Shown here piece by piece: positions 93 through 23,878 of a DNA stretch of 36,025 nucleotides; the stretch's first letter is position 1, and the number at the start of each line of letters is the position of its first letter. Origin of the DNA: Candidatus Thorarchaeota archaeon AB_25 (lineage in GTDB: Archaea > Asgardarchaeota > Thorarchaeia > Thorarchaeales > Thorarchaeaceae); assembly GCA_001940705.1 (NCBI GenBank), contig MEHG01000009.1, forward strand, positions 1-36,025, read 5' to 3'. Both the position numbers and the translations under genes were made by a program. Under the pieces are notes generated by a model, which was given only the letters and a program-made list of their open reading frames with translations, did not search any database and was not told the origin of the DNA.

Positions 93-2123
93 TTACTCCT
101 TTATTGGAGGCATTACATTAGCATAGCCATCCATAACAACGACACCATCATTGTTGAAGACATCAAAACTAAGACGGCATAGGTTGTTTTCAGGCACTTT
201 TTCTGTCACCTCAACAACAGCTCGTATTTCATCCCCAGGATAGACTGGAGCTTTGAAGTTTACTTTCATATTGAATGCTAGTGTTCCTAGACCAGGTAAT
301 TGAGTACCGATCACACGAGCTACCAATGCGCCACCAATTGGACCATGAGCAATTCGTTTCCCAAACATGGTTGTCGCCGCATATTCCTCATCCATATGGA
401 GCGCATTATAATCACCAGACATCTGAGCGTACAAGTCTATGTGCTCATCTGATACAATCATGGTTGATTCAGCTTTTTCGCCAATCTCGATTTCATCCAA
501 ACTTTTTCCAAGCATAAACTTAGTTTCATCCAATGACTCCTTCTTCTCTGGTTTCTTCTCCGCAGGTTTAGGTACACCTTGAAGAATCTCAGGAGTGAAT
601 CTGAACATCCTGGCGAATTTCATCAGTAGCTCCATGTCATCCGTATCAATAACGACCTTCTCCGTCATCATGGCTTGCATCGCATCAAGTTTCCCAAGCA
701 GAATTTCTCGCCAAGTTGCAGAATCTGTCTTCACGTTCATCTTTGGATTCTCAGAATCTCCTTTCTGGATAGCACACTCTTGATTTTCAATTGTTAGTAA
801 CCATGGGTCCGTGTCATCAAAAGAGAACTGGATAACTGCGGAAACACCTTCAGCACGATCAGGTCGAAATCCATTTGGTATCGCACCCATCATTGTGTCA
901 AAATCTAAATCATCAATCTCTGACGATATTTGAGCTGAAGAATCCCGTCTACTCTCAATATAGACCTCTCGTTGGATTAGAAACCGCAGGATCTCTGAAG
1001 TTCCTCCCCCAATTGTACCCAAGCGAGCGTCCCGGTAAAATCTCTCAAGCGGATAGAAGTCTGTGACATATCCAGCTCCACCACATATCTGAATTGCCAT
1101 ATCACAACATTCTACAGACACTTCACTTGCATAGAGTTTGGCAATTGTTGCTTCCTTTGTGCAGGGAATGTCCTTCTGAATCATTCTTGCTGCTGACATC
1201 ATGAGTAATCTTGCAGCGCGCATTTTCACAGCCATATCTGCAACCTTGAAAGAAACACCTTCAAACCGAGAGATAGGTCTACCAAACTGTTCTCGTTCTT
1301 GGGAGTACGCGACAGCGATTTCGAAAGGAGTCCTCATACAGCCAAGTGCTTCTGCGGCAATACCGATTCTCTCCGAGTCTAGTTCATTCATCAGGATTAG
1401 AAATCCCTGATTCTGTTTTCCAAGTAGATTCTCCTTTGGCACTTTCAGATTGTTGAGGCTAAAATGAGTGATACGAACACCATCACGGCCCATCAAATTG
1501 AAGTCCTTCTCAACCTTGAAACCATTCCAGGAAGTTTCAATTATGAACGCAGACATGCCACTTTTGCTGTCCACTGTTGGATCAGTTATTGCGAACACAA
1601 CAATCTGATCAGCTATACTAGCGTTTGTGATGTACCTCTTTTCACCATTGAGAATCCAACACTCATCGTTCGGATCCCATTTTGCAGTTGTGACCATCCC
1701 TGCGGTGTCACTACCGACGTTAGGTTCAGTTATTGCTAGTGCACCTATTTTCTCTCCTTTTGCTAGTGGAGTCAAATACTTCTGCTTTTGCTCCTCCGTC
1801 CCATATCGAAGAATCGGAATTGCTGACAGAGTGCAGCTAGCTCCAAACATCATAGTTGCAGAGGGACAGACTGCTGAAATTTCCTCTCCAGCAATTAGTT
1901 GATACATGAATGGTTTCTCAGAACCGCCGTATTTCTTTGGAATTAGAAGACCTGACAGTCCGAAATCCCCAAGTTTCATGAAATAACTACGAAAGTCAAA
2001 GTCAGGACTTGTAATTGTATCGACGATTGGTTTGATTTCCTTGTCAACCCAGTTACGCACCTTAGAGCGAAATTCGAGCTCATCCTTTGTATACAGTAGC
2101 GTTTCGTCATTCATCTGAGTCAT
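93..2123 (-). CDS. Acyl-CoA dehydrogenase / SCP2 / MaoC hydratase triple fusion
   Basis: Three domains in 676 residues. Residues 1-390 are an acyl-CoA dehydrogenase (FAD, alpha,beta-dehydrogenation of acyl-CoA). The MCAD catalytic glutamate position is glycine (IGGGTSEI, 371-378), while E251 in LDSERIGIA sits where isovaleryl- and long-chain acyl-CoA dehydrogenases carry their base, so the enzyme should be active with the alternative geometry. Residues about 405-510 resemble an SCP2 lipid-binding domain. A charged linker (516-535) leads to a MaoC hot-dog domain (537-675) with the hydratase-2 signature GDYNALH (D571, N573, H576), which hydrates trans-2-enoyl-CoA to the (R)-3-hydroxy product. 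The reading frame is continuous. The ATG has a GGTG site 8 bases upstream. It is divergent from the aldehyde dehydrogenase. The domain calls for the two ends are firm; SCP2 is less so. Confidence 0.9.
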   Translation of the reverse strand: MTQMNDETLLYTKDELEFRSKVRNWVDKEIKPIVDTITSPDFDFRSYFMKLGDFGLSGLLIPKKYGGSEKPFMYQLIAGEEISAVCPSATMMFGASCTLSAIPILRYGTEEQKQKYLTPLAKGEKIGALAITEPNVGSDTAGMVTTAKWDPNDECWILNGEKRYITNASIADQIVVFAITDPTVDSKSGMSAFIIETSWNGFKVEKDFNLMGRDGVRITHFSLNNLKVPKENLLGKQNQGFLILMNELDSERIGIAAEALGCMRTPFEIAVAYSQEREQFGRPISRFEGVSFKVADMAVKMRAARLLMMSAARMIQKDIPCTKEATIAKLYASEVSVECCDMAIQICGGAGYVTDFYPLERFYRDARLGTIGGGTSEILRFLIQREVYIESRRDSSAQISSEIDDLDFDTMMGAIPNGFRPDRAEGVSAVIQFSFDDTDPWLLTIENQECAIQKGDSENPKMNVKTDSATWREILLGKLDAMQAMMTEKVVIDTDDMELLMKFARMFRFTPEILQGVPKPAEKKPEKKESLDETKFMLGKSLDEIEIGEKAESTMIVSDEHIDLYAQMSGDYNALHMDEEYAATTMFGKRIAHGPIGGALVARVIGTQLPGLGTLAFNMKVNFKAPVYPGDEIRAVVEVTEKVPENNLCRLSFDVFNNDGVVVMDGYANVMPPIKE

Positions 2124-2250: not shown

Positions 2251-3909
2251 ATGCGTTTCTTTGGACATCTAATCAAGGGTGAAAAATCAGAACCAGTCAC
2301 TGGCAAAACCAACTTCTTTCCAAACATGAACCAGGCGATAGGTGATCCCCGACTTCTCTATGCAATGGCGCTCAAAGAGCAGGGTTCGCTCAGCAGATTT
2401 GCAGCTCGTTACTTTTCCAACCAATTACCAGTTAAGGTTCCTGAAATTCGGTTGTTAAAGGACTACATCAGAGAGCATGGATATCCGCAGGCGTCAAAAG
2501 ATGAAATCCAAGAGATGCTGTTTGCTGAGTATGCTATTGGCGGAGCTCGGGAAGCAGCGGATGCGTGTGAAGAGGCGCACTCTATTCGTCATCTAATGCA
2601 TAAGGAGCAGTACAAGAAAGGCAAAGGACTTACTCTCAAGGAACGTGCAGAAGGGCTGATTAAAGTTGGTGAAATCCTGTGGAAGCATTTTGATGTTTTC
2701 CGAGAGATTGGCATTGCAGAAGGAACCCCTGTAAAGTTGTTTGAGTGGCAGACAAAAGGTGTCTTCAACACATTATACAAAGATCACATTGAATATGCTA
2801 GTTCCAAGATAGAGTCTGAAGAAATACCCAGTGCAAAGGAGGGTGAAACCACAATCCTAAGTCGCTATCCATTTGGCGCAGTCGGTATCTTTCCACCCTA
2901 TAATGCAGCCATTGGTTTGGGAGGAATGGCAATTATCTCTAGCTACTGGGCAGGGAATGCTACAGTCACAAGAACTCCCTCGAAAATGCCACTCACCAAT
3001 ATGGAACTGGCATATGTCTTGACTGAAGCCATGAAGGAATTAGATTTTCCTCACAGCGCGTTTCAGTCAGTTATCGGGCCAGCCCGTAGCATAGCTAAGT
3101 ACATGGTGAATGAGTCGCCGTTGAATGCAATGGTTTACTATGGTGATTCAGATATTGGTCTAGAATTGATGTCTCAAGCAGTAAGAAGAGGCCTCCATTT
3201 CATTCCAGAACTAGCTGGAAGTGGTGCAAGCCTTGTTTGGAAGGATGTAGATGTTGACAGAGTGGCAGACTACGTAAATCATGCTCGCTTCTTTGGTTCA
3301 GGACAAATCTGCTTAGCCGCTAAAAGATTATTCTTGCATGAAGAAATTTATGATGATTTCATTGAAGAGCTTATTGAAAGAAGTCAGAATTTGAAAGTAG
3401 GTCTCCCTGCTGATCCCAACACGGACTTGCCAATTATTGGGGCTCGTGCGCTTTACCAGAATATTGACATGATTCGTGAAGCAGTGAGCAAAGGTGCTAA
3501 GTTGGAAGCTGGCGGTTATCGGTTGAATGCGCAGGGAGAAAGAGATGAATCCGGTTTATTCTATAAACCAACAATTCTCAGTGATGTGGCTCTCGACTGC
3601 AAGATGTGGTATCATGAAACATTCGGTCCAGTCTTACCAGTCATGAAAATCAGCTCATTTGAAGAAGCTATCACCCAGGCAAACAACACGCCTTATGGAC
3701 TTCGAACCTCGGTGTATAGTGAAGACCCAGAAATATGGCAACACTTCTTCGATGAAATTCAAGCTCCAGGGATTGCTGTAAATACGGACCATCTACACTT
3801 TGATGATTACTATCCCCATCTGGGTGGTTTGAAGACCAGTGGTTTGTTCGGTGGCAAGTACTTCTATGAAGTCCTTACGTATCTGAAGTATATGCATCTT
3901 CCAAAGTAA
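2251..3909 (+). CDS. Aldehyde dehydrogenase family protein
   Basis: NAD(P)-dependent aldehyde dehydrogenase superfamily, oxidising an aldehyde to the acid or acyl-CoA. Residues 204-500 carry the fold signatures: PPYN (N218, oxyanion-hole asparagine), ELAGSGA with general-base E320, GSGQIC with nucleophile C354, and ETFGPVLPV at 456-464. The protein (552 residues) is longer than the usual 480-500, with an extended N-terminal part of roughly 80 residues. An AGGAG sits 13 bases before the ATG. It is divergent from the acyl-CoA dehydrogenase fusion and convergent with the GNAT gene 12 bases away. The substrate cannot be read from the sequence; the neighbourhood suggests a fatty or short-chain aldehyde. 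Confidence 0.88.
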   Translation: MRFFGHLIKGEKSEPVTGKTNFFPNMNQAIGDPRLLYAMALKEQGSLSRFAARYFSNQLPVKVPEIRLLKDYIREHGYPQASKDEIQEMLFAEYAIGGAREAADACEEAHSIRHLMHKEQYKKGKGLTLKERAEGLIKVGEILWKHFDVFREIGIAEGTPVKLFEWQTKGVFNTLYKDHIEYASSKIESEEIPSAKEGETTILSRYPFGAVGIFPPYNAAIGLGGMAIISSYWAGNATVTRTPSKMPLTNMELAYVLTEAMKELDFPHSAFQSVIGPARSIAKYMVNESPLNAMVYYGDSDIGLELMSQAVRRGLHFIPELAGSGASLVWKDVDVDRVADYVNHARFFGSGQICLAAKRLFLHEEIYDDFIEELIERSQNLKVGLPADPNTDLPIIGARALYQNIDMIREAVSKGAKLEAGGYRLNAQGERDESGLFYKPTILSDVALDCKMWYHETFGPVLPVMKISSFEEAITQANNTPYGLRTSVYSEDPEIWQHFFDEIQAPGIAVNTDHLHFDDYYPHLGGLKTSGLFGGKYFYEVLTYLKYMHLPK

Positions 3910-3921
3910 CAAACCCGCAAC

Positions 3922-4407
3922 TCAAAGAGGTCGTTCATACAATTGAACTATCATGCCCTCTGCTTGTTCGTAAGGTTCTTTCCAAGGACTAAAACCAAAT
4001 TTCTTCATGAGTTTCTCACCGACTTTTTGCCCAACTAGGATATTACAGTAATTTCGTTTGCACCCAAGGGCACGTCCGTATTCTGCAAATTGCATATACA
4101 TCGCAGACGCAAGACCTGTGGTTCTACATTCAGGTCGGACAGTCTGATGTTCGCCATACAGACCCTTGTCAGTAATTTTGGCTTTGTAGAGGCCAACGAT
4201 TCTTCCTTGGAGCCGGCTTCCGAAGTAGTGGTAGCCATTCCTCAAATCCTCAATAATTTGCTCAGGAGTGTACATTCTCTGTTTTCGCCAGTGTTCAGGA
4301 TATTCCTTAGCCAATGGCCATACCTGTCTGAAGAGCTCTGAGATCTCTTTGGCATCTTCTTCACGAAACTCAATGATACGAATTTCTTCAGCAGGATACT
4401 CTTCCAT
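3922..4407 (-). CDS. GNAT family N-acetyltransferase
   Basis: A 161-residue single-domain GNAT protein that would transfer an acetyl group from acetyl-CoA to an unknown amine. The acetyl-CoA pyrophosphate-binding motif A is RTTGLA (95-100) on the expected strand-helix turn, and the C-terminal motif-B region is GEKLMKKFGF (130-139). It is probably the last gene of the long minus-strand series that starts at glpA, 51 bases after the radical SAM gene. GNAT genes are known to accompany radical SAM proteins of the MSMEG_0568 family in Nit1C clusters, so this pair may be functionally linked. Whether this GNAT belongs to the same subfamily as those partners cannot be told by eye. Confidence 0.85.
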   Translation of the reverse strand: MEEYPAEEIRIIEFREEDAKEISELFRQVWPLAKEYPEHWRKQRMYTPEQIIEDLRNGYHYFGSRLQGRIVGLYKAKITDKGLYGEHQTVRPECRTTGLASAMYMQFAEYGRALGCKRNYCNILVGQKVGEKLMKKFGFSPWKEPYEQAEGMIVQLYERPL

Positions 4408-5605: not shown

Positions 5606-6730
5606 CTAATCTGCTTTCACATCGCGGCCCTTTGTTCCGTGCATTACAAACTCTGGTAGGTCAAGAACCGTTATGGTCTCACCTGATTGTGAGTCTAACA
5701 TTTCCTTACAAAATGGACATGATGTCACAAGATACCGTGCGTCGACATTTGTTGCGTGACGAATTCGCTCTGCACCGATTTTCTTTGCATGCTCTGGAAA
5801 TAAGGTTCTGAGTCCAGCACCATTGCCGCAGCACATTGCGTTATCCTTATTCCGCTCCATCTCAATAACTGGAGAGCCAGAAACTCGTTCAATTACATCT
5901 CGTGGTGCATCATACACACCAGAATGACGTCCTAGATGACAAGGATCATGATATGTGATTAGTCCATCATACTCACAAGTGGATAGTTTTTCCAAAGAGT
6001 TACCCAAGAACTCACTGATGTGCCGTACGGGTTTGTTAAGTTTGCGTTTATTTTCAGAGTAATCAGAAGTGAGCACCCGATAGCAGCCAGGACATGTTAC
6101 CAAAATCTCCTCAGCATCTATGCTATTCAGTACCTCAACATTATGAGCTGCCAGTTCCAGACCAGACTCTAGGTCTCCAGTCCTGATTAGCGGACTTCCA
6201 CAGCACCACTCATCAGGTGTGACCTCAACTGAGTATCCAAGTTGTTCAAGAAGGGATACAGTATCCTGAGCATTATCTTTCTCTCGGTAAGCTGCTGTGC
6301 AGCCAGTAAAGTACAGGATTTTCGGTCCCTTTGAGTCGCCGGTTTTCATCCAATCATTCCTTTTAGAATGGTCTTCTCCAAATGGATTGTGAGTCTCTTT
6401 GACAATGCTTGTAAGTCGAGATATGCCTTCAGGCTGCCGGTTAGTCTTCACCAGTTCTCGCCGTTTATTTTCAACAAGAGTGGCAATGTCAATTTCAGGT
6501 TTACACCAAGTTAGACAGTGACTACATTCAAGACACTGGTATAGTACTTCCACTCCACGTTCATCTATATCACGAGTGCCAGTGGTTTCGTGATGCATTA
6601 TTAGCGCGCGTCCGTGAGGTGTAGGTGCATCTGATCTCCAGGCAAAGAATGTAGGACACACATGCCTGCACATCTTTGGACAACCTGCGCACATCCTCAC
6701 CTGTTCCGCAATCTTATCCGGTTCTGTCAC
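5606..6730 (-). CDS. CCG-domain Fe-S oxidoreductase subunit
   Basis: 374-residue electron-transfer protein of the GlpC/HdrD/LldE type. Two [4Fe-4S] sites lie at C14, C17, C21, C25 and C66, C69, C72, C76. Two CCG domains follow: C144, C176-C177, C213/C216, and HDPCHL C264, C300-C301, C338/C341. Such proteins carry electrons from a flavoprotein to quinone or heterodisulfide-type acceptors. The start is a GTG overlapping the stop of the upstream AGPS-like flavoprotein (GTGA), with a GGGGGTG site 5 bases before it, so the two are translationally coupled and probably form a complex. No membrane segment is visible, so the protein is cytoplasmic or peripheral. Confidence 0.88.
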   Translation of the reverse strand: MTEPDKIAEQVRMCAGCPKMCRHVCPTFFAWRSDAPTPHGRALIMHHETTGTRDIDERGVEVLYQCLECSHCLTWCKPEIDIATLVENKRRELVKTNRQPEGISRLTSIVKETHNPFGEDHSKRNDWMKTGDSKGPKILYFTGCTAAYREKDNAQDTVSLLEQLGYSVEVTPDEWCCGSPLIRTGDLESGLELAAHNVEVLNSIDAEEILVTCPGCYRVLTSDYSENKRKLNKPVRHISEFLGNSLEKLSTCEYDGLITYHDPCHLGRHSGVYDAPRDVIERVSGSPVIEMERNKDNAMCCGNGAGLRTLFPEHAKKIGAERIRHATNVDARYLVTSCPFCKEMLDSQSGETITVLDLPEFVMHGTKGRDVKAD

Positions 6731-8154
6731 TCACGCACCCCCAAACCAAGCTTTCCAGGGTTCATGATGCCATTGGGATCCAAGGCATCTTTGATCTTCT
6801 TCAGAACCGAAAAACCAGATCCCAATTCATCCGCAGTGTAAGTACTGCGAGATAGACCAACACCATGTTGATGGCTCATTGTCCCTCCCTCTCTAAGGCA
6901 AGCCGCAACTCCATCTTCAAAGATCTTGTTGTAGGTCGCCCAAGCAGTTTCTGCATCAGCTTGCGATGAGTAGAATATCATGTAGATACTACCACCATTC
7001 TGATACATGTGAGAGAAATGAGAAATGACAAATACGTCATAAGCTTCCATAGCTTTCTTCATTGCGTGATACACATTCTCAAGCTTGTCATAAGTTGCAA
7101 CAATATCGATAGTATCAACTACAGTATAACCCGCAGTTGTTAGACGTGTTGGGTAGTACATATCATAGCGATGTTCCCACCAACGTTTTGCAATACTCTC
7201 TCCCAGATCAGTTCCACCCTCTGTCCTGCACAAATCGAGCGATCTTGCTTCGTCGATTTCAACTTTCTTTGAGGCTCCATCAAATGCTAAGAGTAGTATG
7301 CAATGGCCTTCTTCGAAATCAAAATGCATAGAAAAGCTATATGATGCATCTTCTGGGTCATAGAGTCGAGCTACTGAAGGAACTATTCCTTCCCGAAAAA
7401 TCTTGCGTATAGCCTCAAGCCCACTATGGACATCAGGGAAACTCAAACTACAAAACCGTCGCTCTTCAGGTAGTAAGAACAGCCGCAGAGTTGCTTCAGT
7501 GATAACTCCCAACGTACCCTCTGAACCAACGAAGAGTTCTCGTAAATCAGGACCTACGGAATGACGAGGTACAGCTTTTGTAGAAACAACTGAGCCATCA
7601 GGAAGGACCATCTCAAGACCTAGGGTCAGATCCTCAATTTTACCATATAGAGAAGACATCGACCCCCCAGACCGAGTTGCAATGAATCCTCCAATATTTG
7701 ATGCTCGTGATGACGTAGGAGTATGTCCAGTGGTGTATCCGTGACGATTTACTTCTTCTTCAAGGTCTATGCCCATGACTCCAGCTTGGACTCTTACAGT
7801 CATAGAGGAATGATCTATTTCGTAGATTTTGTTGAACCGTTTGAGGTCAAGGTGAATACCCCCATAGACAGGTACGGTTCCTCCACAGGTTCCAGCTCCA
7901 CCACCTACAGGTATGACTGGGATTCTCAGCTCATTTGCTACAACCAGAACCTGTGAGACCTCATCTGTACTTCCTGGAAAAACAACTAGGTCTGCTTGGG
8001 GTAGTATCTCACTTGCGCGAATCTTAGCCAAACTAAGTGGCCAAGCATCATGCGCGTTCAAAATCCTGTCCGTTTCGAGTTCGGTGATGTTATCTTTGCC
8101 AACAATCTTGATAATCCTGCTCAGAGCTTTCCGCTTCGTTTTTTCATCAACCAT
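6727..8154 (-). CDS. FAD-linked oxidase, alkyl-DHAP synthase-like
   Basis: Flavoprotein of the VAO/PCMH family, 475 residues from the ATG at 8154 (GGTG 8 bases upstream, 7 bases after the preceding stop); 12 further residues would be added from an upstream start I consider less likely. The FAD pyrophosphate loop is PVGGGAGTCGG (82-92), then SEGTLGVITEATLRL (211-225), a FAD-oxidase C domain and SHQHGVG (427-433). The layout and the GGTMSHQHGVG motif resemble alkyldihydroxyacetonephosphate synthase more than D-lactate or glycolate dehydrogenases, although AGPS has SHHHGVG. It sits between two CCG Fe-S proteins in a glp operon, which would suit a 2-hydroxyacid or glycerol-phosphate dehydrogenase. 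The substrate is therefore open. Confidence 0.85.
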   Translation of the reverse strand: MVDEKTKRKALSRIIKIVGKDNITELETDRILNAHDAWPLSLAKIRASEILPQADLVVFPGSTDEVSQVLVVANELRIPVIPVGGGAGTCGGTVPVYGGIHLDLKRFNKIYEIDHSSMTVRVQAGVMGIDLEEEVNRHGYTTGHTPTSSRASNIGGFIATRSGGSMSSLYGKIEDLTLGLEMVLPDGSVVSTKAVPRHSVGPDLRELFVGSEGTLGVITEATLRLFLLPEERRFCSLSFPDVHSGLEAIRKIFREGIVPSVARLYDPEDASYSFSMHFDFEEGHCILLLAFDGASKKVEIDEARSLDLCRTEGGTDLGESIAKRWWEHRYDMYYPTRLTTAGYTVVDTIDIVATYDKLENVYHAMKKAMEAYDVFVISHFSHMYQNGGSIYMIFYSSQADAETAWATYNKIFEDGVAACLREGGTMSHQHGVGLSRSTYTADELGSGFSVLKKIKDALDPNGIMNPGKLGLGVRE

Positions 8155-8161
8155 TTGTGAT

Positions 8162-9400
8162 TCACCTTTTCTTCGGAAGTCTTTGAGCAATGAATACTGT
8201 CAGGTCATCGACCTCAACTGAACTACCAGCTTTGAAGAGATTACTCTCAATTTGTGCGGTACAAAGAGGACAGGGAGTCACAAGTCTATCCGCGCCAGTT
8301 TTCTGGATAGCCTTCATGTTCTCCTTGACAACAGCATTAGCCACATCACTAGCATGGTATGCGACCAACCCACCCCCACCACAACACGAGTCATACGCTT
8401 CTGATTCAGAAACTCTCACGCTTGGTAGCGCACGAAGAATGTTGAGAGCGTGTTCCATGATCTGACGAGATGTATGTTTAATGAGGTGGCAAGGATCATG
8501 AACTGTGACATGTACTTCTGTCAGCTCCGGGGGTTTGTCCATCGCTTTTCTCATTCTCTCAAGGCCAATCTCTTCAACCAAGAATTCCAAGATATGAATA
8601 GTTGGAATACCCCAATCATAGTTGTGTGAGATGTCGGATAAGTTGGAGGTACAGCCTGCACATGTGGTGACTACTGTCTTTGTTCCTAGTCGCATCACCT
8701 TCTCTTTTAGCTGTTCTGCCAAGGATCTTGCAGTTTCATTATCACCAATCAGGCGAGCAGGTAGTCCACAGCATGACATCTCATCAAGTAACGTATAGTC
8801 AACATCAAAATAATCTAAAATCACCTTTGCTGCTTCTCGAACCTCTTGAGCTCGTTCCTCCGCTTGACATCCTGGATAGAATAGAACCTCAGCTTTATCG
8901 AGGTTCTTGTCTTGTACAAATGGGAGTCCTAGTCGTTCAAGTCGCATATCTCTGCTCTCTGCTTTCTCTGCTTTATCCTCCCAGGGTTCGAATGCTAAAT
9001 TGTACTTAGTGAGGATTTCTCGAACCATATAGAGCCCTTTGGGAACTAGATCACGGCGATGCTCGAAGATTCTTGCACGGATTAGATTGACTACTTCAGG
9101 GATATCGACATTCTTTGGGCAGACTTCACGACAGGTTCCACATCCTGTACACAGGTATACTATTTCAGCAGTTGACCAGAACTCAGGTGGAGATCTACTT
9201 AATTCCACTGCGATACTTCGAGGTCCACTGAACCTGTCTATCCCCACAGCGGCAACCACAGGACAGTGGGATAAGCAGAGACCGCAGTTTATGCAGCTCT
9301 CTACTGAATTCACAGCCTCAAACTCATGTGGATGATATGGAGTTATTCGCTCTTCCTTAAGCGTGCTCTTCGCATACTCAAAAGCTTCATCCTCATTCAT
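8162..9400 (-). CDS. GlpC-like Fe-S / CCG-domain protein
   Basis: 412 residues, likely the electron-transfer subunit of anaerobic glycerol-3-phosphate dehydrogenase. [4Fe-4S] sites: C36, C39, C42, C46 and C84, C87, C90, C94. CCG domains: YPGC (C178), C210-C211, C247/C250, and HDPCHL (C304), C339-C340, C377/C380. The start at 9400 is chosen because AAGGAGGTG ends 7 bases before this ATG and the GlpB stop ends one base upstream; the longer open frame reaching 9469 would overlap glpB. The position directly after glpA and glpB supports the GlpC role. It is a paralogue of the second CCG protein downstream; one may serve GlpAB and the other the AGPS-like flavoprotein. Confidence 0.88.
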   Translation of the reverse strand: MNEDEAFEYAKSTLKEERITPYHPHEFEAVNSVESCINCGLCLSHCPVVAAVGIDRFSGPRSIAVELSRSPPEFWSTAEIVYLCTGCGTCREVCPKNVDIPEVVNLIRARIFEHRRDLVPKGLYMVREILTKYNLAFEPWEDKAEKAESRDMRLERLGLPFVQDKNLDKAEVLFYPGCQAEERAQEVREAAKVILDYFDVDYTLLDEMSCCGLPARLIGDNETARSLAEQLKEKVMRLGTKTVVTTCAGCTSNLSDISHNYDWGIPTIHILEFLVEEIGLERMRKAMDKPPELTEVHVTVHDPCHLIKHTSRQIMEHALNILRALPSVRVSESEAYDSCCGGGGLVAYHASDVANAVVKENMKAIQKTGADRLVTPCPLCTAQIESNLFKAGSSVEVDDLTVFIAQRLPKKR

Positions 9401-9401
9401 G

Positions 9402-10769
9402 TCAGAACACCTCCTTGATGAAATTGATGGCATTCTTTGCTGCTGAGTAACCACTCGTAGCCGCAACACCTAAGCCGCTCTTCTCAGTAGAATAATCATA
9501 TCCTGCCAAGACTGATCCAGCGGCGAAGAGATTCGAAGCCCACTCCACACCATCTTCTTTAACTGGTCTGAAGTGTGGATCAACAGTCAACCCACAGGAA
9601 TAGAGAGGTTGACCCTCTGGACTGATTGCAACACGATTTGTGAAACGAGATGGTAGAATATCGCCAGCTGAGTGGTATGTTCCTGTGACTGTCATCAAGT
9701 CAAAGAGAGATTCATGAATTCCGTTTTCATCTCCACTTAATCCGCATCCTATGTACTTCCCTGTAGCAAGGATGAACGCCTTGGCATCAATCTGCATCTC
9801 TCTACGTGGGGCCTTCGCAGTCACACTACTCAATCGGTTATCAGTCGTGAAGGAGGATATTGCTTCATGACCAACTAGCATCTTTCCACCACTTCTTCTG
9901 AATAGTCCTTCTAGAGCGAGTTGAAGTCTCAATCCGGGAACGGATGGTGGAAATCCTAGTAATTCAAACACTTCGACACCTAACAGTTTCTCTAATTCTT
10001 TCTTGTTTTCAAGCGCATTCTTAAGACCAAGGACTGGTGGAAGAGCTACGTGAGTCGCTCCTAATTGGTCCACATGCATCTTCAACTGGTTTGCTAGTTC
10101 TTCGATGGAGTTTTCATGATCCAAATGTCTAGCAATCTCTATTGAGGACAAATTGTAGGATTTACCAAAGGGAGTAATCTGTAGTAAACATCGTCCAACC
10201 TTTCGAGGTGGCCCACTACTTGCGAGTCTATCCTCGAGATATGTCTTCGCTGCAATTGAGGGGTTGAAGTCAGGATAACCCGTAATTCCAGCCAAAAGAA
10301 GAACTCCATCCTCGCGTTCCTGAAGTGTTTCAGAATACATAGTTTCCTGAATCAGGCAGGTAGGTTTTGTTGTTCCAAGAATTGTGATAGCATGAATATT
10401 GGATTTGAATGAACCTCTCAGTTGAGCGATTGTTCCTTTAAGATTCGTCTTCAACCAAGTGATGGCATCCCGTGTTCTACTTACAATCTCATTTACTACA
10501 TTGTCTTCTTGTACCTCTTCACTGTAACCAACAATACTGTATGGATGAAGAGGTAGTAGTCCAGCAACAGCTGCGAGTCCCTCTTTAGGTGATGAGAATG
10601 GTTCAGAAGCATCTGGAAGGTATCCCATGACATCTATGGCACCGGACGAGTATGCAGTCGCACTCTGTCCTTTACGCAGTAGAATTGTTGAGAGACCCTC
10701 GTTGGAGGCGATAGAGCCTGCTACAAGACCAGCCATTCCTCCACCAATAACTAGGAGGTCACATTCAAT
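9402..10769 (-). CDS. glpB: Anaerobic glycerol-3-phosphate dehydrogenase subunit B, non-AUG/GUG/UUG start
   Basis: GlpB flavoprotein subunit. GQSATAYSSGAID and LPLHPYSIVGYSE match the Escherichia coli subunit (SSGSLD, HPYS). The FAD loop VIGGGMAG lies upstream of the first ATG (10736), so that ATG would remove the Rossmann motif. The frame extends back only to the glpA TAG stop, through ATA GAT ATT GAA TGT, with no ATG, GTG or TTG. Starting at ATT 10769 puts eight residues before GGG, exactly as in E. coli GlpB, and gives 455 residues. ATA at 10775 is the alternative. A GGAGGAGGGG site lies just upstream, inside the end of glpA. Identity is firm; the start is inferred. Confidence 0.85.
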   Translation of the reverse strand: MECDLLVIGGGMAGLVAGSIASNEGLSTILLRKGQSATAYSSGAIDVMGYLPDASEPFSSPKEGLAAVAGLLPLHPYSIVGYSEEVQEDNVVNEIVSRTRDAITWLKTNLKGTIAQLRGSFKSNIHAITILGTTKPTCLIQETMYSETLQEREDGVLLLAGITGYPDFNPSIAAKTYLEDRLASSGPPRKVGRCLLQITPFGKSYNLSSIEIARHLDHENSIEELANQLKMHVDQLGATHVALPPVLGLKNALENKKELEKLLGVEVFELLGFPPSVPGLRLQLALEGLFRRSGGKMLVGHEAISSFTTDNRLSSVTAKAPRREMQIDAKAFILATGKYIGCGLSGDENGIHESLFDLMTVTGTYHSAGDILPSRFTNRVAISPEGQPLYSCGLTVDPHFRPVKEDGVEWASNLFAAGSVLAGYDYSTEKSGLGVAATSGYSAAKNAINFIKEVF

Positions 10770-10775
10770 ATCTAT

Positions 10776-12422
10776 CTAAATCCCCTCCTCCCATGGCTTT
10801 AGATCATAGTCGACATCTGACTGGTCAAGGTTTCCAACACACGAATACATACCCTGAGCCAGCTCTTCTTGGGCAAGCTGTTCACCTCTCATAGATGGAC
10901 GAATACCTTTCCATCTCTCCGCTCTGAAGTCTAGTATGTCAACTAGAAAGTCATCACCTTCTAGATTGAGTTCTTCGGACAAGATTGCAGCAGCTTTGTA
11001 AGTACAGAAGGTTCCTTGACATGGTCCAGTACCTAGCCGCAATCTTCTGCGAAGATCATTCAGTGTTTGCGGAAACTCCTCTCTTATTGAATATCGAATC
11101 TCCGCTTCTATGATGGGTTCACAAGTACAGATTGTTGTCTTCCATTCTGGATTGACCTTTGTCATTTCAAGGATTTTCTTCATCTCTGTCCCACGTCGAG
11201 CACGCATACGTTCCAATGCATGCATTTTCACTCCATATTCTTTTGACAAAGTCTCGATGTCCACATCAGCCTCATTTCCAGGTAGAGGCTTTTTGTGTGT
11301 AGTACATTTTACTTTGCTACCTAGTTTCTTACAGACTAGATTGGTGACCGCCTCTGCCATGTGTCTGCACATCACGAGTTTTCCACCTGTAAAACTGATC
11401 ATACCATTGTCATGATCTATCACCTGATATCCTCGAGTCACCTTGTCCTCAGGGACATTCCATTCTGGTACAAGGGGACGAATACCAGCCATTGTTCTGA
11501 TGATTCGTGCTTCGCGTATGGATGGGATAACAGTTTCAATACTCTGCAAGAGGTACTCAATCTCATCAAGTGAGGCAACTAGAGTGTCAGGGTCTTCCCA
11601 AGTGTCCAATGCAGTAGTACCCAGAAGAGTTGTATTCTCATGAGGGAAAAGATAGATCCATCTACCATCGATTGCCTTTGCAGTGATTCCTACATTTACA
11701 ATCCTACGATCAAAGATTACATGAGCACCTTTGTTGAGTCGAAGGTCGAGGTCTGCGCCACTTAATCTAGCCAGTTTGTGAGCCCATGGTCCAGCTGCAT
11801 TCACAACTAATTTCGTGCTTACTATTTCTGTTGTACCAGTGATTCTATTGTAGAAGACAACTCCTTGAACTTCGTTTTTGAGTGTTTCAAACCGGATCAC
11901 TTCGCAATAGGTCCTGATATTGGCTCCATAGTTTCTAGCATCAAGAGCCTGAAGGAGGCACAAACGGAATGGGTCAATGAAGAATTCTTCATAGTAGACA
12001 CCAGCAATAACATCAGGACTCACCATGGGTTCTATCTCTAAAGTTGCCTCAGGCGTAATGAAATTCATAGGAGGAACTTCTCGTTCCTCAGCATGCTCAG
12101 AATAGGCATCAATAATCTCACCATCACTGGCTGCAACACTCAGATCAAGAATTGGGGCAAGTATTGGATTCTTCATAATTATGTGACGCGCGATTCGGTT
12201 TAGATACACAACCTCTAATGAACACATCTTCATTATCTCAGGTTCGCCTCTGTACTTGAGACCCGAGGATATCATCCCTGCACAGGTGCCTACACTGGCG
12301 GATGCAATATCATCACGCTCCAAAAGAATAGTTCTGAGACCCCTCATTGCGCAGTCCCGGGCTACAGCAGTGCCAGTGCTTCCTCCACCAATTACAACAA
12401 CATCATACTCAGAGTCGCTCAT
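10776..12422 (-). CDS. glpA: Anaerobic glycerol-3-phosphate dehydrogenase subunit A
   Basis: FAD-dependent oxidation of sn-glycerol 3-phosphate to dihydroxyacetone phosphate. The FAD motif GGGSTG is at 12-17, followed by the DAO fold; LLERDDIASASVGTCAGMI covers the conserved segment after it. The C-terminal BFD-like Fe-S domain has C432-x-C434 and C468-x4-C473 (GPCQGTFC), which separates GlpA from aerobic GlpD. The length of 548 agrees with GlpA. It is the first gene of a minus-strand operon with glpB and the GlpC-like gene. Its TAG stop is in the same frame as glpB, with no frame change between the two. An AGGA lies 11 bases before the ATG. Confidence 0.93.
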   Translation of the reverse strand: MSDSEYDVVVIGGGSTGTAVARDCAMRGLRTILLERDDIASASVGTCAGMISSGLKYRGEPEIMKMCSLEVVYLNRIARHIIMKNPILAPILDLSVAASDGEIIDAYSEHAEEREVPPMNFITPEATLEIEPMVSPDVIAGVYYEEFFIDPFRLCLLQALDARNYGANIRTYCEVIRFETLKNEVQGVVFYNRITGTTEIVSTKLVVNAAGPWAHKLARLSGADLDLRLNKGAHVIFDRRIVNVGITAKAIDGRWIYLFPHENTTLLGTTALDTWEDPDTLVASLDEIEYLLQSIETVIPSIREARIIRTMAGIRPLVPEWNVPEDKVTRGYQVIDHDNGMISFTGGKLVMCRHMAEAVTNLVCKKLGSKVKCTTHKKPLPGNEADVDIETLSKEYGVKMHALERMRARRGTEMKKILEMTKVNPEWKTTICTCEPIIEAEIRYSIREEFPQTLNDLRRRLRLGTGPCQGTFCTYKAAAILSEELNLEGDDFLVDILDFRAERWKGIRPSMRGEQLAQEELAQGMYSCVGNLDQSDVDYDLKPWEEGI

Positions 12423-12584
12423 ACATATCTATTCCTGAGATACTGCTTCTGGGATTCAGCCATGGGGAGTGAACCTACGTGCAATACTAAGGTTTCGGAT
12501 TGGATATGATGGGAGCACATCATCAATAACAACCAAGATTACATTAAAAGGAGAAATTCGAGGTTTGGGTTGGTGAACTTTTCT

Positions 12585-12833
12585 ATGCCCACCTATGACC
12601 TCGGTACACTTGTAATCGATAACCATGACGTAAAGAAACTCACTCAAGCTCTTGACATCCCTGATCACCGTTTTGAAGACATTGTAAACCTCGCTAGACA
12701 GGCATGGGAACATGAAGATACAATCAGTGAATCAATTGAGTATATAGCACAGAATGCAAGTGGATCCGAATTAGTTCTAGCATTCGTATTCTTTGGCAGA
12801 ATCTGGGAAGATAATCAAGAAGAAGACGAATAG
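12585..12833 (+). CDS. Small acidic protein of unknown function
   Basis: 82 residues from the ATG at 12585, chosen because GGTGA ends 8 bases before it; in-frame TTG 12570 and GTG 12573 are alternatives. I do not recognise the family. The protein is mostly amphipathic helix, with ALDIPDHRFEDIVNLARQAW in the middle and the acidic tail EDNQEEDE. It lies on the opposite strand between the glycerol-kinase-like gene and glpA, ends 2 bases before the kinase stop, and is divergent from glpA. It could be a small regulator or binding partner, but nothing in it shows DNA binding. An overlapping minus-strand frame (12456-12713) has no ribosome site and less protein-like composition. Confidence 0.6.
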   Translation: MPTYDLGTLVIDNHDVKKLTQALDIPDHRFEDIVNLARQAWEHEDTISESIEYIAQNASGSELVLAFVFFGRIWEDNQEEDE

Positions 12834-12835
12834 TC

Positions 12836-14293
12836 CTACGATATTGCTTCCAAAATATTTCCGATTTCAGAGTTTAAAAGTTTGTTAAAGATTGGGAATT
12901 GTTTCTTGTATACTTCTACATTTTCAGGAATAGGCTCTCGGCGTTCTTCGATATGAAACATGTTGTCAATGGCTTCACTATAGTCCCCATAAATTCCAGT
13001 TCCAATGGTGCCAAGAATTGCAGCGCCAATCACAGTTGAGTCTCGAACTTTGGGTAGAACGACAGCTCTGTTAATGCAGTCTGCTTGTATTTGACGCCAT
13101 AATGGGGAATTTGCTCCACCACCACCGATACGGAGCTCATTGAACTCAATATCAAGCATCCCTTCCATCATCTCAAGGTACATAGAAATGATATACCCAT
13201 TGGCCTCGAGGATTGCTCGAGCAACATGTGCCTTCGTATGCCCGAAACCTAGATTGTAGAATATTCCTAAATTATATGCCATGAATGGAAACATCACAAG
13301 TCCATCACTACCAGCAGGAACAGAAGCTGCAGAAGATTCGATAATTTGATACACGTCCTTCTGAGTTTGCGCGGCTAATGCCATCTCAGGTTCACAATAC
13401 TGATCTCTGTACCACTTGTAGGTGAGTCCAGTTCCGGGTGTAACTCCTTCAAGAATCCACTTTCCGGGAATCGCTGACGGGTTACAGTACATGACATAAG
13501 GCTCTTCCATGAATTCATCGAGATGTGTTATCACGAAGGTTCCAGTACCTGTAGTAGCTTTCACCATGCCAGCTTCGATGACACCCATACCCAAAGCAGA
13601 ACATTGTTGGTCACCACTACCCAGAATAACAGGAGTTCCTTTTCTCAGAGATGTAGCCTTTGCAGCCTCAGAACTAATCTCGCCAATGGTGGTGCCGGAA
13701 TTCTTGATTTCAGCTAGCTTGTCAATTGGAATTCCTGTTGCCTCACATAACTCATCAGACCATTGAAGTGTTTCATGGTCAATCGGACCAAACCTAGCAT
13801 CAGCAGGTGAACTGACCAGAGCACCACAGAGCCGGTTGTTGATGAAAGCATCAAGCTGTGGCCATTTGTGTGTCTTCTTAAAGAAGTCTGGTCGGTTTTC
13901 AATGAACCACATCAATTTTCTAACGCTACCTCGTGGACCGATTTCCCCAGCCATTTCCTTGCTCTTTGAAGTTGATCTATTATCAACCCAAGTAACTGTG
14001 GGGGCTAGTGCCTTTCCTTCTTTGTCTATTGGAGTGATTGAATCTCTGGTCGTTGAAACAACCACACCTACAATCGCATCTGGTCCATGTTTGCAACCTG
14101 CAAGAGACCTCTGCATCGTATTGGCGGAGGTTCGCCAAAAGGTGTCAGCAACTTGCTCATGTATCTTGACGTTTCTGGGCTTTGGAGGGTACTCTTCATA
14201 CGCTTTGCTAACCTCACGCCCTTCCTCATCCACAATAACAGAACGTGCTCCTGTGGTCCCAATATCAAAAATCGCAAAGAGACGGTCACTCAT
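12836..14293 (-). CDS. FGGY-family carbohydrate kinase, probable glycerol kinase
   Basis: ATP-dependent kinase of the ASKHA fold, 485 residues. The phosphate-1 motif is DIGTTGARS (10-18). GSGDQQCSALGMG contains D228 in the GDQQ motif characteristic of glycerol kinases, where this aspartate is the catalytic base. The adenosine motif region is IGGGGANSPLWRQIQAD. The N-terminal motif is less typical of GlpK (which has DQGTTSSR), so another polyol or ketose kinase is possible; the glp neighbours favour glycerol. The start at ATG 14293 is preferred over GTG 14305 because GGTGA lies 7 bases upstream. It is separated from glpA by a plus-strand gene, so it probably has its own promoter. Confidence 0.8.
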   Translation of the reverse strand: MSDRLFAIFDIGTTGARSVIVDEEGREVSKAYEEYPPKPRNVKIHEQVADTFWRTSANTMQRSLAGCKHGPDAIVGVVVSTTRDSITPIDKEGKALAPTVTWVDNRSTSKSKEMAGEIGPRGSVRKLMWFIENRPDFFKKTHKWPQLDAFINNRLCGALVSSPADARFGPIDHETLQWSDELCEATGIPIDKLAEIKNSGTTIGEISSEAAKATSLRKGTPVILGSGDQQCSALGMGVIEAGMVKATTGTGTFVITHLDEFMEEPYVMYCNPSAIPGKWILEGVTPGTGLTYKWYRDQYCEPEMALAAQTQKDVYQIIESSAASVPAGSDGLVMFPFMAYNLGIFYNLGFGHTKAHVARAILEANGYIISMYLEMMEGMLDIEFNELRIGGGGANSPLWRQIQADCINRAVVLPKVRDSTVIGAAILGTIGTGIYGDYSEAIDNMFHIEERREPIPENVEVYKKQFPIFNKLLNSEIGNILEAIS

Positions 14294-14326
14294 CGATTTC
14301 ACCACTAATCAGTGTGTGGACAAGGA

Positions 14327-15319: not shown

Positions 15320-16105
15320 TCACTTGTGTTTGAATTCTGGTTTACGTTTCTCAAGGAAAGCTGCTACACCTTCTTCCTTATCATCTGTATCAAAGGTCTG
15401 ACAAAAAACCTCAAGCTCGAAAGCGAGGTGTTCGTCGAGTGGGAGTTGCCACGCTTTCTGGATGGACTGTTTTGCTAAATCAAGAGCAACTCCAGGCTTT
15501 TGTGACAATTTCTTTGCAAGTTCCAATACACCTGCTTTGAGTTCATCCACGGAGCTGAAGACTTTGTCCACAAGACCAATTCTCAAGGCTTCCTCAGCAG
15601 TTATCAAATCGCCAGTTAGAATGAGTTCTTTCGCAATTCCAAGGCCAACAAGCCTTGCAAGTCTTACTGTTCCTCCATTCCCTGGTAAGGTTCCAAGATT
15701 TATCTCTGGAAGACCCAATTTCGCATTAACTGATGCATAGCGGATATCGCATGCAAGTGCAAGCTCACAACCCCCGCCAAGTGCATAACCATTCACAGCA
15801 CAAATTACTGGCTTCTTCATGGAAACCATATACTGGGCTATCTCTCTACTGGGATCAACGACTTCTCGGATGGTCTTGGAGTTCCGACCAACAAAATCAG
15901 TCACATCAGCTCCAGAGATGAATGCCTTCTCTCCTATACCAGTGAGAATCACTACTCTGATAGAAGGATCTTCATGAGCTCGTTTCAGCAGCTCTAGTAG
16001 TTTCTTCTTTACATCAATGTTGAGTGCATTGTATCGTTCTTGTCGATTAATGGTGATTGTGGCTATCGCATCTTTTGCATCATAGATCACCAGATCTTCT
16101 GTCAT
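15320..16105 (-). CDS. Enoyl-CoA hydratase (crotonase), copy 2
   Basis: Crotonase hydrating trans-2-enoyl-CoA to (S)-3-hydroxyacyl-CoA. The oxyanion hole is AFISGADV, and ALGGGCELALACD holds E114; GLPEINLGTLPG holds E134. Both catalytic glutamates are present. The usual GAGG is GNGG here. 261 residues from the ATG at 16105, 19 bases after the stop of the 3-hydroxyacyl-CoA dehydrogenase; a longer open frame would run into that gene. It is close to the copy at 18101-18886, and the last 85 or so bases of the two genes are nearly identical in DNA. It is the final gene of the first beta-oxidation cassette. Confidence 0.92.
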   Translation of the reverse strand: MTEDLVIYDAKDAIATITINRQERYNALNIDVKKKLLELLKRAHEDPSIRVVILTGIGEKAFISGADVTDFVGRNSKTIREVVDPSREIAQYMVSMKKPVICAVNGYALGGGCELALACDIRYASVNAKLGLPEINLGTLPGNGGTVRLARLVGLGIAKELILTGDLITAEEALRIGLVDKVFSSVDELKAGVLELAKKLSQKPGVALDLAKQSIQKAWQLPLDEHLAFELEVFCQTFDTDDKEEGVAAFLEKRKPEFKHK

Positions 16106-16124
16106 GTTCTTCTCACATCCACTG

Positions 16125-17252
16125 TCATTGAAGCATTTTAGGAAGACTATAGCAATCTCCAAATTCTTCTTGGAGTTTCTTCAACTCCTCTCGAACCTTA
16201 TCGACTCCAAGCCGCTCAATGGTTTCAAAGGGACCTTCTTTGTAGTTAGAGCCCAGCTTCATAGCTTTGTCAATGTCCTCCTTAGATGCAATCCCAGCCT
16301 CGAATTCAATCATAGCCTCTCTCAGATATGGCATGAGGATTCTGTTGACCAACCAATCTGGATCTGCACCCTTTGGTTCGTCAAGTGACCGTTTCTGGCC
16401 ATCTTCATAAGCATAGAATCCCTTGCCGGCCTTCCTTCCGATTCTTCCCTCTTTCACAAACCTCTTGAGTATTTCAGGAACTTTGTAACATTCTCCCAAT
16501 TCTCTCTCTAGTGTACTCCCTGTACCTAGGGATACATCCATACCAACAAAGTCAGATAATTCCAATGATCCCATGGGTGTGCCTAGCTTCTCTTTCATAG
16601 CTGTGTCAATCTCTTCGGCGCTCGCTAGACCTTGTTCATAGATATGTAGTACCGCTCTCGAAATCTGACTTCGGAGCCTGTTGACAATGAATCCAGGACT
16701 GTCTATTGCCTTAACAGTGATTTTTCTCTGTTTCTCGCCAACTTCTAGTGCAGTCTGAATGGTGTCTTCGTCTGTTTCCTTGCTGATAATGACCTCTAGA
16801 AGTTTCATTGCAGGCACAGGAGAGAAGTAGTGCATACCAATTACTTTGGTAGGTCGATTTGTAACCTTACCAAGCTCAGTTATACTAAGCGAAGAGGTGT
16901 TGGAAGCAAGGATTGTGTGAGGCTTTGCAGCACTGTCCATTTCTTTGAAGAGTTTCTTCTTGACATCCATGTTTTCGAAGACCGCCTCTATGACCAAATC
17001 TACATCACTGACTGCTTCGCTCAGATTTGTTGTAGTAACTAGCTGACTGATTATCTTCTCACCATCTTCAGGTGATAACTTGCCTCGTTTGATTCCCGAT
17101 TCCACATAGCCGTTGAGCCTCGATAGACCTCGATTTATCGCTTCGTCATCCAAATCTGTCAGTATCACATCATATCCGGAGGCTCGTGAAACATATGAGA
17201 TTCCAGCCCCCATTAGACCGGCACCAATAACGGCTATCTTGTTGACCTTCAT
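16125..17252 (-). CDS. 3-Hydroxyacyl-CoA dehydrogenase, copy 1
   Basis: NAD-dependent oxidation of (S)-3-hydroxyacyl-CoA to 3-ketoacyl-CoA. The Rossmann motif is GAGLMGAG (10-17), then ASNTSSLSI (N118, S120) and GMHYFSPVP with catalytic H141. After it come two C-terminal helical repeats (from about 185 and 300), which makes it 375 residues rather than the 285 of single-repeat enzymes. The start is ATG 17252: AAGGAGTG lies 8 bases upstream and the nitroreductase stop is 5 bases before it. It is paralogous to the enzyme at 22381-23508. No hydratase domain is fused, so separate crotonases on each side supply that step. Confidence 0.92.
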   Translation of the reverse strand: MKVNKIAVIGAGLMGAGISYVSRASGYDVILTDLDDEAINRGLSRLNGYVESGIKRGKLSPEDGEKIISQLVTTTNLSEAVSDVDLVIEAVFENMDVKKKLFKEMDSAAKPHTILASNTSSLSITELGKVTNRPTKVIGMHYFSPVPAMKLLEVIISKETDEDTIQTALEVGEKQRKITVKAIDSPGFIVNRLRSQISRAVLHIYEQGLASAEEIDTAMKEKLGTPMGSLELSDFVGMDVSLGTGSTLERELGECYKVPEILKRFVKEGRIGRKAGKGFYAYEDGQKRSLDEPKGADPDWLVNRILMPYLREAMIEFEAGIASKEDIDKAMKLGSNYKEGPFETIERLGVDKVREELKKLQEEFGDCYSLPKMLQ

Positions 17253-17257
17253 TTCTT

Positions 17258-18025
17258 TCACTCCTTTTTTCTGAAAGCTAATCTCTCGTATGGTTTCCCC
17301 CAACGCTCATCATATAATAATCCCTCAAGTGGTGGTCGACTGGGTCCTAGGTGTCTTGATTTCATTGGAATTCCGATGCAAAATGCTGTCAATGGAGTCC
17401 ATATCGGTGGAATTCCAATCCTATCACGAATTAACTGAGTGTGTCGCGAGTCTGAGCATACCAGAGCCTCGTAGCCGCAACCATAACCCATCGCTGTTGC
17501 GACCATCCACATATTCTGGATAGCCATGCCTGCAACAACAGAACCGAAAAGTTCGTTGGGATACAATTTTGTGGCATCATGCCATGCAGGACATGCACAC
17601 ACAATAATAACAGTGTCACTTTTCTCGGGATAGCGAAAGAGTTCTCCTTCTCGAAGTCTAGAAAATACAGCGGCTCGAAACTCATCCTGTATGTACCAGT
17701 TTCTACCACTTGTGAGCTCGAAAGGGGCTGATCCAAAAACTGTCTGCGCGTTTTCCTGTGCGATATCTGCTAGGAATTCCTTTGTATCTTGATCATCTCG
17801 AATCACGATTAATCGAATCATCAACATGTTCTCTGGACTTGGTGCATGTCGCGCAGCCTCTAATATCAATTCAATATGCTCATCAGGGATTCTTCCACCA
17901 GTAAATTCACGGATAGAGCGTCGGGACCTGATATGTTTCATAACCTGTAAGCCTGAAGCTATCTTTGTGTTTTCTAACTCCTTGCCGCTAACATCCAAAC
18001 TTCCTTTGGTATCTGTTGTCATCAT
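17258..18025 (-). CDS. Nitroreductase-family flavoprotein, copy 1
   Basis: 255 residues of the FMN-dependent nitroreductase fold. RSRRSIREFTGG (FMN phosphate-binding arginines) and EAARHAPSPENM near the N-terminus, and GYGCGYEALV near the middle, are typical. The true substrate is unknown; most members are NAD(P)H- or ferredoxin-dependent reductases. A near copy is at 24408-25169 (by eye about three quarters identical), and both are directly linked to 3-hydroxyacyl-CoA dehydrogenase genes, which suggests a redox task in acyl-CoA metabolism. Both end in an RWGKPYxRLAFRK tail. The gap to the upstream crotonase is 75 bases, so it may be cotranscribed with it or have its own promoter. Confidence 0.88.
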   Translation of the reverse strand: MMTTDTKGSLDVSGKELENTKIASGLQVMKHIRSRRSIREFTGGRIPDEHIELILEAARHAPSPENMLMIRLIVIRDDQDTKEFLADIAQENAQTVFGSAPFELTSGRNWYIQDEFRAAVFSRLREGELFRYPEKSDTVIIVCACPAWHDATKLYPNELFGSVVAGMAIQNMWMVATAMGYGCGYEALVCSDSRHTQLIRDRIGIPPIWTPLTAFCIGIPMKSRHLGPSRPPLEGLLYDERWGKPYERLAFRKKE

Positions 18026-18100: not shown

Positions 18101-18886
18101 CTATTTGTGTTTGAATTCTGCTTTACGCTTCTCAAGGAAAGCTGCTACACCTTCTTCTTTATCCTCAGTATCGAAGGTTTGACAAAACTGATCAAGCTCA
18201 AATGCAAGATTATCAGTCAGAGTTTGTTGCCAAGCATTGTTCAACGATTGTTTTGCCAACTTGATTGCAACACCAGGTTTTCCAACTAACTTGGTTGCGA
18301 GTTCTTTCACACCTTCATGGAGGGCTTCAGTAGATTCAAACACTTTGTTTACTAGACCAATCCGTAATGCTTCATCAGCCTTGATCTGATCTCCTGTGAA
18401 TACAAGCTCTTTCGCCATTCCAAGACCGACAAGTCGTGGGAGTCTTACTGTACCACCATATCCTGGAATGATACCCAGAAGGATCTCAGGTTGACCAAAT
18501 CTTGCATTCGCTGATGCATACCGGATGTCGCATGCCATGGCAAGCTCACAGCCTCCTCCCAATGCAAAACCGTTTACTGCAGCGATAACTGGTTTACCTA
18601 TCGACTCTATATACACACTGAGTTCTTGTCCTTGCAAAGCAGCTGGACGTACCTCTTTCGAGTCTATGCCTGGGAACCCTGTGATATCGGCTCCTGCAGC
18701 AAATGCTTTCTCCCCAGCACCGGTCAAGACAATAACTCTCACAGCATCATCCTTCTCAGCCTTACTGAAGAAATCAGTTAGAGCTGCTCTCACAGTGGTG
18801 TTCAAAGCATTATATTTTGCAGGGCGATTTATTGTGATAGTTGCAATTCCATCAGCTACTTCATAGAGAACTTCCTGTTCAGACAC
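18101..18886 (-). CDS. Enoyl-CoA hydratase (crotonase), copy 1
   Basis: 261-residue crotonase with both catalytic glutamates: ALGGGCELAMACD (E114) and GQPEILLGIIPG (E134), and AFAAGADI forming the oxyanion hole. It begins with GTG at 18886, with AAGGAGG 7 bases upstream. It is the first gene of the cassette that continues with nitroreductase, 3-hydroxyacyl-CoA dehydrogenase and a second crotonase. A TATA-like CTTATTAC lies around 18929-18936. It is divergent from the small hypothetical gene at 19022. The two crotonases probably differ in chain-length or branched-chain preference; nothing visible decides which. Confidence 0.92.
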   Translation of the reverse strand: MSEQEVLYEVADGIATITINRPAKYNALNTTVRAALTDFFSKAEKDDAVRVIVLTGAGEKAFAAGADITGFPGIDSKEVRPAALQGQELSVYIESIGKPVIAAVNGFALGGGCELAMACDIRYASANARFGQPEILLGIIPGYGGTVRLPRLVGLGMAKELVFTGDQIKADEALRIGLVNKVFESTEALHEGVKELATKLVGKPGVAIKLAKQSLNNAWQQTLTDNLAFELDQFCQTFDTEDKEEGVAAFLEKRKAEFKHK

Positions 18887-22234: not shown

Positions 22235-22280
22235 TTGTATCCACCTTTTTAGAGTCTTTACAATTCCCGAGTGAGTGACT

Positions 22281-22290
22281 GACTTATAAA
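22281..22290 (-). promoter_or_regulatory. TATA-like box for crotonase copy 3
   Basis: TTTATAAGTC on the minus strand, 47 bases before the ATG and just after the previous gene's terminator. The TFIIB element upstream is not obvious. Confidence 0.5.
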
Positions 22291-22352
22291 CCCCATTTAT
22301 CAGAGCCAGATACACACTGACCCTAGATAAAGGCACTATAAAATAAGAATTA

Positions 22353-22373
22353 GGCAGGGAATGAAACCCTGCC
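22353..22373 (-). terminator. Hairpin terminator after 3-hydroxyacyl-CoA dehydrogenase copy 2
   Basis: A 7-bp stem (GGCAGGG and CCCTGCC) with a 7-base loop starts 8 bases after the dehydrogenase stop; the strand then reads taattcttatttta, a T-rich tract. It separates the second cassette from the crotonase promoter. Confidence 0.75.
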
Positions 22374-22380
22374 AAATGTT

Positions 22381-23877: not shown

Positions 23878-23878
23878 T

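Follow-up and report, generated by a model that had tools for sequence, protein, structure and literature searches.

An acyl-CoA dehydrogenase-SCP2-MaoC fusion protein and its linked aldehyde dehydrogenase in Thorarchaeota and other Asgard archaea

The window analyzed in this work, i.e., the whole stretch of 36,025 nucleotides, opens contig 9 of a draft genome from Thorarchaeota (264 contigs, 2.86 Mb in total, completeness 85%). The gene at positions 93–2123 (stop codon included) is located on the minus strand, leaves 92 bases between its end and that of the contig, and encodes, from ATG to stop and with no internal stops, a protein of 676 aa. The preliminary description of this DNA recognized here a three-part fusion, which was confirmed, as the acyl-CoA dehydrogenase (ACAD; residues 12–387), SCP2 (421–507), and MaoC (551–642) domains follow each other in a single frame, every family is above its Pfam cut-off, and 12 further full-length orthologues were found. 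The location given there was also correct, but the strand was not indicated and a conserved partner gene, encoding an aldehyde dehydrogenase, was overlooked. None of the curated NCBIfam models attains its own cut-off on the fusion protein. The best one for the ACAD part is acryloyl-CoA reductase (338 bits versus a cut-off of 640), while for the MaoC part it is PRK08190, a bifunctional enoyl-CoA hydratase/phosphate acetyltransferase with a MaoC domain of the same type, whose fusion partner is, however, a phosphotransacetylase. The AlphaFold model of the fusion, built with five sequences, has a mean pLDDT of 39.

The ACAD domain (positions 963–2090, minus strand) comprises, in the expected order and all above the Pfam cut-offs, Acyl-CoA_dh_N (PF02771, residues 12–124, 3e-27), Acyl-CoA_dh_M (PF02770, 128–225, 2e-21), and Acyl-CoA_dh_1 (PF00441, 238–387, 8e-47), and the best structural relatives of this N-terminal part of the protein in the PDB are acyl-CoA dehydrogenases (8e-83). 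Glu251 (codon at 1371–1373, minus strand), the probable catalytic base, aligns with the helix-G site (IVD 254/LCAD 291), whereas the loop position of MCAD Glu376 is occupied by Gly373; both residues are invariant in all 17 sequences compared. The earlier remark that E251 replaces the MCAD base was thus right as to the position, but the replacement is not unusual, since the helix-G glutamate is the catalytic base of LCAD and IVD, the former being known to take bulky and branched acyl-CoAs (PMC10925408). The arrangement recurs in two other ACADs encoded by this genome, so that it characterizes the family rather than the fusion alone, and E251 was rejected as a novelty; one of the two, C75, is a single-domain paralogue with 53% identity to the fusion. 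IVD and LCAD resemble the fusion also in that the loop position of the MCAD base is held by a non-acidic residue, but they are single-domain proteins. Moreover, the ACAD part is overall nearer to short-chain/butyryl-CoA dehydrogenases, under which the IVD structures rank, and it has only the base position in common with the IVD subfamily proper; in the alignment, the nearest solved ACADs keep the loop glutamate. The predicted reaction of this domain would be an FAD-dependent alpha,beta-dehydrogenation with ETF.

The SCP2 domain (positions 603–863, minus strand) matches PF02036 at 9e-12, its 45.7 bits exceeding the cut-off of 21.3, and was located at the same place in the family-based genome search, while the PDB search with this domain yielded a single, weak match (2cx7, E 0.085). 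Its role may be that of a putative lipid or acyl-chain carrier. It is followed by a variable linker of 20 residues (approximately 516–535; positions 519–578, minus strand; 0–50% identity), the only freely drifting segment of the protein (pN/pS 0.42–0.90 versus 0.07–0.20 in the domains). The MaoC domain (positions 198–473, minus strand), the fold of which runs on to the C-terminus, matches PF01575 (MaoC_dehydratas) at 5e-19, i.e., with 68.6 bits against a cut-off of 27, and therefore both SCP2 and MaoC are significant matches. The closest solved structures are (R)-specific hydratases, namely the PhaJ-type enzymes 5cpg (2e-30) and 1iq6 (2e-20) and the human mitochondrial HTD2 (3ir3; 1e-17), all with a single hotdog and the SGD-x-N-x-x-H motif. 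In the fusion, this motif reads SGDYNALH (positions 396–413, minus strand), and its active-site residues Asp571 and His576 are invariant in 13 out of 13 fusion proteins. The PhaJ-type hydratases and HTD2 are free-standing, whereas here the domain is attached behind ACAD-SCP2. Since it is of the single-hotdog PhaJ/HTD2 type, the hydration would soundly be predicted to give (R)-3-hydroxyacyl-CoA, and the previously proposed contrast with the (S)-specific enzymes encoded elsewhere in the window holds at the family level.

The partner gene ALDH-A (positions 2251–3909, plus strand) encodes an aldehyde dehydrogenase of 552 aa (PF00171, 2e-82) with the catalytic Glu320 and Cys354 motifs. Applying a threshold of at least 65% identity, we found ALDH-A orthologues in 19 genomes, 17 of which also carry the fusion or an ACAD-SCP2 protein. 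In one genome (G212) ALDH-A occurs without the fusion and in another one (G051) ACAD-SCP2 occurs without ALDH-A, while G044, which has ALDH-A, was left unjudged for the fusion as the contig ends there. In Thorarchaeota and in a second Asgard family (f12) the two genes are placed back to back, and in three genomes of a third family (f9) ALDH-A lies immediately behind the ACAD-SCP2 gene on the same strand, so that the linkage holds in two different gene arrangements. The shared upstream region of the divergent pair (positions 2124–2250) contains, as revealed by the alignment of five Thorarchaeota intergenic regions, a conserved block GAGGAGATTTAAGAG at approximately 2180–2196, whose core AGATTTAAG is identical in all five; the block is possibly a BRE/TATA-like promoter element. 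ALDH-A retains the hydrolytic glutamate, and its product should therefore be a free acid requiring a separate CoA ligase; none linked to the pair was found at the loci. It is also worth mentioning that in five of the eight f12 loci (L039, L041, L043, L044, and L046) a gene of the geranylgeranyl-reductase family lies on the strand of the fusion and downstream of it, and in three of them directly next to it, at a distance of 3–97 bases.

The search for the same architecture in other genomes, covering 227 Asgard genomes, recovered the full fusion in 13 of them (including the one analyzed here), i.e., in five of the Thorarchaeota family (f1) and eight of f12. Four named, independent Thorarchaeota records, one of which is the single-contig chromosome CP070658, have the same full-length frame with 74–85% identity. 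In four genomes of f9, an ACAD-SCP2 protein ends where MaoC would start, and in a fifth one (G047) the gene is truncated by the contig end. A wider search for relatives (392 genomes of 185 genera, with about 165 genomes inferred to lie outside the phylum) listed exclusively Asgard matches, and among the matches listed those extending beyond the ACAD domain were confined to f1, f12, and f9. Short exact patterns, scanned once against species genomes, matched in Thorarchaeota only, and in the plasmid searches no record had SCP2 joined to MaoC across more than 80% of the query made of these two domains. The one plasmid covering more than 80% of the whole protein was rejected as a fusion, as its ACAD gene (594 aa) and its MaoC gene are separate. 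Every domain of the fusion belongs to a known family; the arrangement is new insofar as the ACAD-SCP2-MaoC order was not found described in the literature searched, outside which most subscription journals lay.

Over the pairs compared, pN/pS amounted to 0.07–0.11 for ACAD, 0.14–0.20 for SCP2, and 0.08–0.14 for MaoC, with synonymous sites near saturation among the Thorarchaeota copies. As these values are low in each domain and only the linker drifts, all three domains are kept by selection, and the catalytic residues are invariant in the 13 fusions (those of ACAD in 17 sequences). An assembly chimera or a frame error behind the fusion, a suspicion that the gene end 92 bases short of the contig end might raise, can be practically discarded, because the full-length frame recurs in four Thorarchaeota records (including CP070658) and eight f12 genomes, the identical architecture is present in 13 genomes, one of them a single-contig chromosome, and 675–676 residues align among Thorarchaeota with low pN/pS.

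The history of the locus can be followed by its flanking genes. In 26 other f1 genomes a different aldehyde dehydrogenase is encoded (ALDH-B, approximately 40% identical to ALDH-A), and at the threshold used no genome had both. ALDH-B sits between the same GNAT and RsmB genes in six out of seven loci examined and adjoins RsmB in the seventh, whereas in the lineage of the window its place is filled by the ALDH-A/fusion pair, with ALDH-A inverted (comparison loci L160–L166 versus window positions 2251–4407). In G212, the fusion has been lost from the pair and ALDH-A left. In a close relative, G208, a deletion scar (L139:8518–8767; G208:C111) between intact GNAT and RsmB genes comprises the last 29 codons of ALDH-A and about 60 codons of the fusion, joined by the deletion; it should be stressed that both G208 and G212 are single draft genomes. 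In the phylogenetic tree, long branches part ALDH-A from ALDH-B, and the ALDH-A proteins of the three families are placed close together. With RpoB as the yardstick of divergence (EF-2 was dropped, since its copies were paralogous or fragmentary), Thorarchaeota and f12 show 67% identity in RpoB and 72% in the fusion, while two Thorarchaeota genera have 92% and 74%, respectively. The simplest reading is that the ALDH-A/fusion pair may have been transferred between Asgard lineages, replacing the resident aldehyde dehydrogenase, and that parts of it were subsequently lost from two genomes. If the divergence of the fusion is saturated, this could account for some of the identity pattern, though not for the gene swap at one locus. 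The in-place exchange of one aldehyde dehydrogenase for an aldehyde dehydrogenase-fusion pair, followed by deletions, would offer a legible example of how a metabolic module travels among Asgard archaea.

As regards the metabolic context, EtfAB is encoded in the genome analyzed, and Etf was found in nine out of ten genomes with the fusion or ACAD-SCP2 that were tested. Eight SDR candidates for the oxidation of an (R)-alcohol are encoded in this genome, and among the three f12 genomes checked two yielded a single one and the third yielded none. The (S)-route enzymes mentioned in the preliminary description are indeed present in the window, which contains three crotonases (15320–16162, 18101–18886, and 21422–22375) and two 3-hydroxyacyl-CoA dehydrogenases (3HCDH; 16125–17303 and 22381–23508). 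Crotonases and 3HCDH proteins occurred in all 15 genomes tested, and hence the classical (S) route exists beside the fusion; its hydratases and dehydrogenases could take the enoyl-CoA of the fusion instead. Furthermore, the module can do without the hydratase step, as four f9 genomes keep ACAD-SCP2 without MaoC.

Taken together, we consider it an even chance that the fusion catalyzes two consecutive steps of beta-oxidation and carries its own lipid-binding domain. In such an enzyme, the ACAD domain would convert acyl-CoA to trans-2-enoyl-CoA with FAD, Glu251 as the base, and EtfAB as the electron acceptor, SCP2, tethered to it, would retain the hydrophobic acyl chain or hand it over, and the C-terminal hotdog MaoC domain on its flexible linker would hydrate enoyl-CoA to (R)-3-hydroxyacyl-CoA. 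The divergently encoded ALDH-A may supply the matching acid from an aldehyde, its activation being presumably performed by one of the CoA ligases of the cell. As substrates, the IVD/LCAD-type base and SCP2 would favor bulky or branched (e.g., isoprenoid) chains over short straight ones, and the geranylgeranyl-reductase-family neighbor in f12 likewise suggests a branched or isoprenoid substrate. The fatty-acid and lipid metabolism of the Asgard group is known almost only from gene lists, and here dehydrogenation, lipid holding, and (R)-hydration could be tested together in one expressible protein.

Peroxisomal MFE-2 and SCPx, in which an (R)-hydratase or a thiolase is fused to SCP2, serve the oxidation of branched and bulky chains. 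The fusion would work somewhat like them, but it is not a member of this group: MFE-2 combines an SDR dehydrogenase with a double hotdog, whereas the fusion has an ACAD and a single hotdog, no SDR domain, and another domain order. Descent from the eukaryotic MFE-2 was rejected, as the latter is a remote match only (1e-6). A broader proposal, to which we attach little credence, is that the pair might be an Asgard-specific, horizontally shared module in which branched or isoprenoid chains are oxidized by the (R) route, convergent with peroxisomal ACOX/MFE-2/SCPx; if true, archaea related to eukaryotes would have a counterpart of that system.

The best surviving alternative, though unlikely in our opinion, is that the fusion works in reverse, i.e., MaoC would dehydrate (R)-3-hydroxyacyl-CoA and ACAD-Etf would reduce enoyl-CoA, as an electron sink or for acyl-chain synthesis. 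Fusobacterial MaoC-ACAD-Etf operons provide a precedent, in gene content only, since a run on an Ilyobacter plasmid consists of CoA transferases, a thiolase, a FabG-type reductase, MaoC, ACAD, and EtfA, and the order in ZRK30 is MaoC, ACAD, EtfB, EtfA. The closest curated ACAD profile, acryloyl-CoA reductase, points in the same direction, yet the score is far under its cut-off, and the Thorarchaeota host is probably a strict anaerobe, which would suit this direction. However, the two activities are encoded in the fusobacterial operons by neighboring, separate genes without SCP2, and their ACADs, which share only some 40% identity with that of the fusion, rely on the loop glutamate and not on the helix-G one. 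Moreover, across the genomes the fusion has no direct linkage to genes for a reductase, a thiolase, or Etf, and the gene that is linked encodes an oxidative aldehyde dehydrogenase.

A dedicated enzyme for branched or isoprenoid acids, which would convert a 3-methyl-enoyl-CoA to a tertiary alcohol to be cleaved by a lyase, and thus act in archaeal lipid recycling and not in general fatty-acid oxidation, seems rather doubtful. The IVD/LCAD-type base, the SCP2 domain, the ALDH partner, and the geranylgeranyl-reductase-family gene adjoining the fusion in three f12 loci are consistent with it, but this reductase family is broad, and neither the Thorarchaeota nor the f9 loci contain the gene. Moreover, the fusion has no linked lyase or carboxylase gene, and a substrate class is not proved by the position of the base alone. 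It is still more improbable that MaoC hydrates something other than a simple 2-enoyl-CoA, which would make the (R)-beta-oxidation reading wrong. The MaoC family includes enzymes of mesaconyl-CoA-type or other side pathways, but none of the results obtained here points to one of these, and the top matches of the domain are the single-hotdog PhaJ and HTD2 structures.

Several further genes were noted in the window and in related genomes. Another SCP2 fusion occurs in Thorarchaeota, a protein of about 700 aa composed of an N-terminal hydrophobic stretch, SCP2, and an arylsulfotransferase (ASST) domain (L208:1828–3936, L209:801–2918, and L210:2067–4175). Two tandem, related ORFs of 337 and 336 aa (window positions 29146–31221, plus strand) have no Pfam match, and the same applies to ORFs of 120 and 175 aa (23515–24406, minus strand), which lie within the beta-oxidation run and are flanked by 3HCDH and a nitroreductase-family gene. 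Finally, the minus strand at 5606–14305 encodes two CCG iron-sulphur proteins, a GlcD-like flavoprotein, an FAD_binding_2 protein, a GlpA-like glycerol-3-phosphate dehydrogenase, and an FGGY kinase. Other Thorarchaeota show synteny for the first five genes of this run, and the GlpA-like run is odd for an archaeon expected to make glycerol-1-phosphate lipids.
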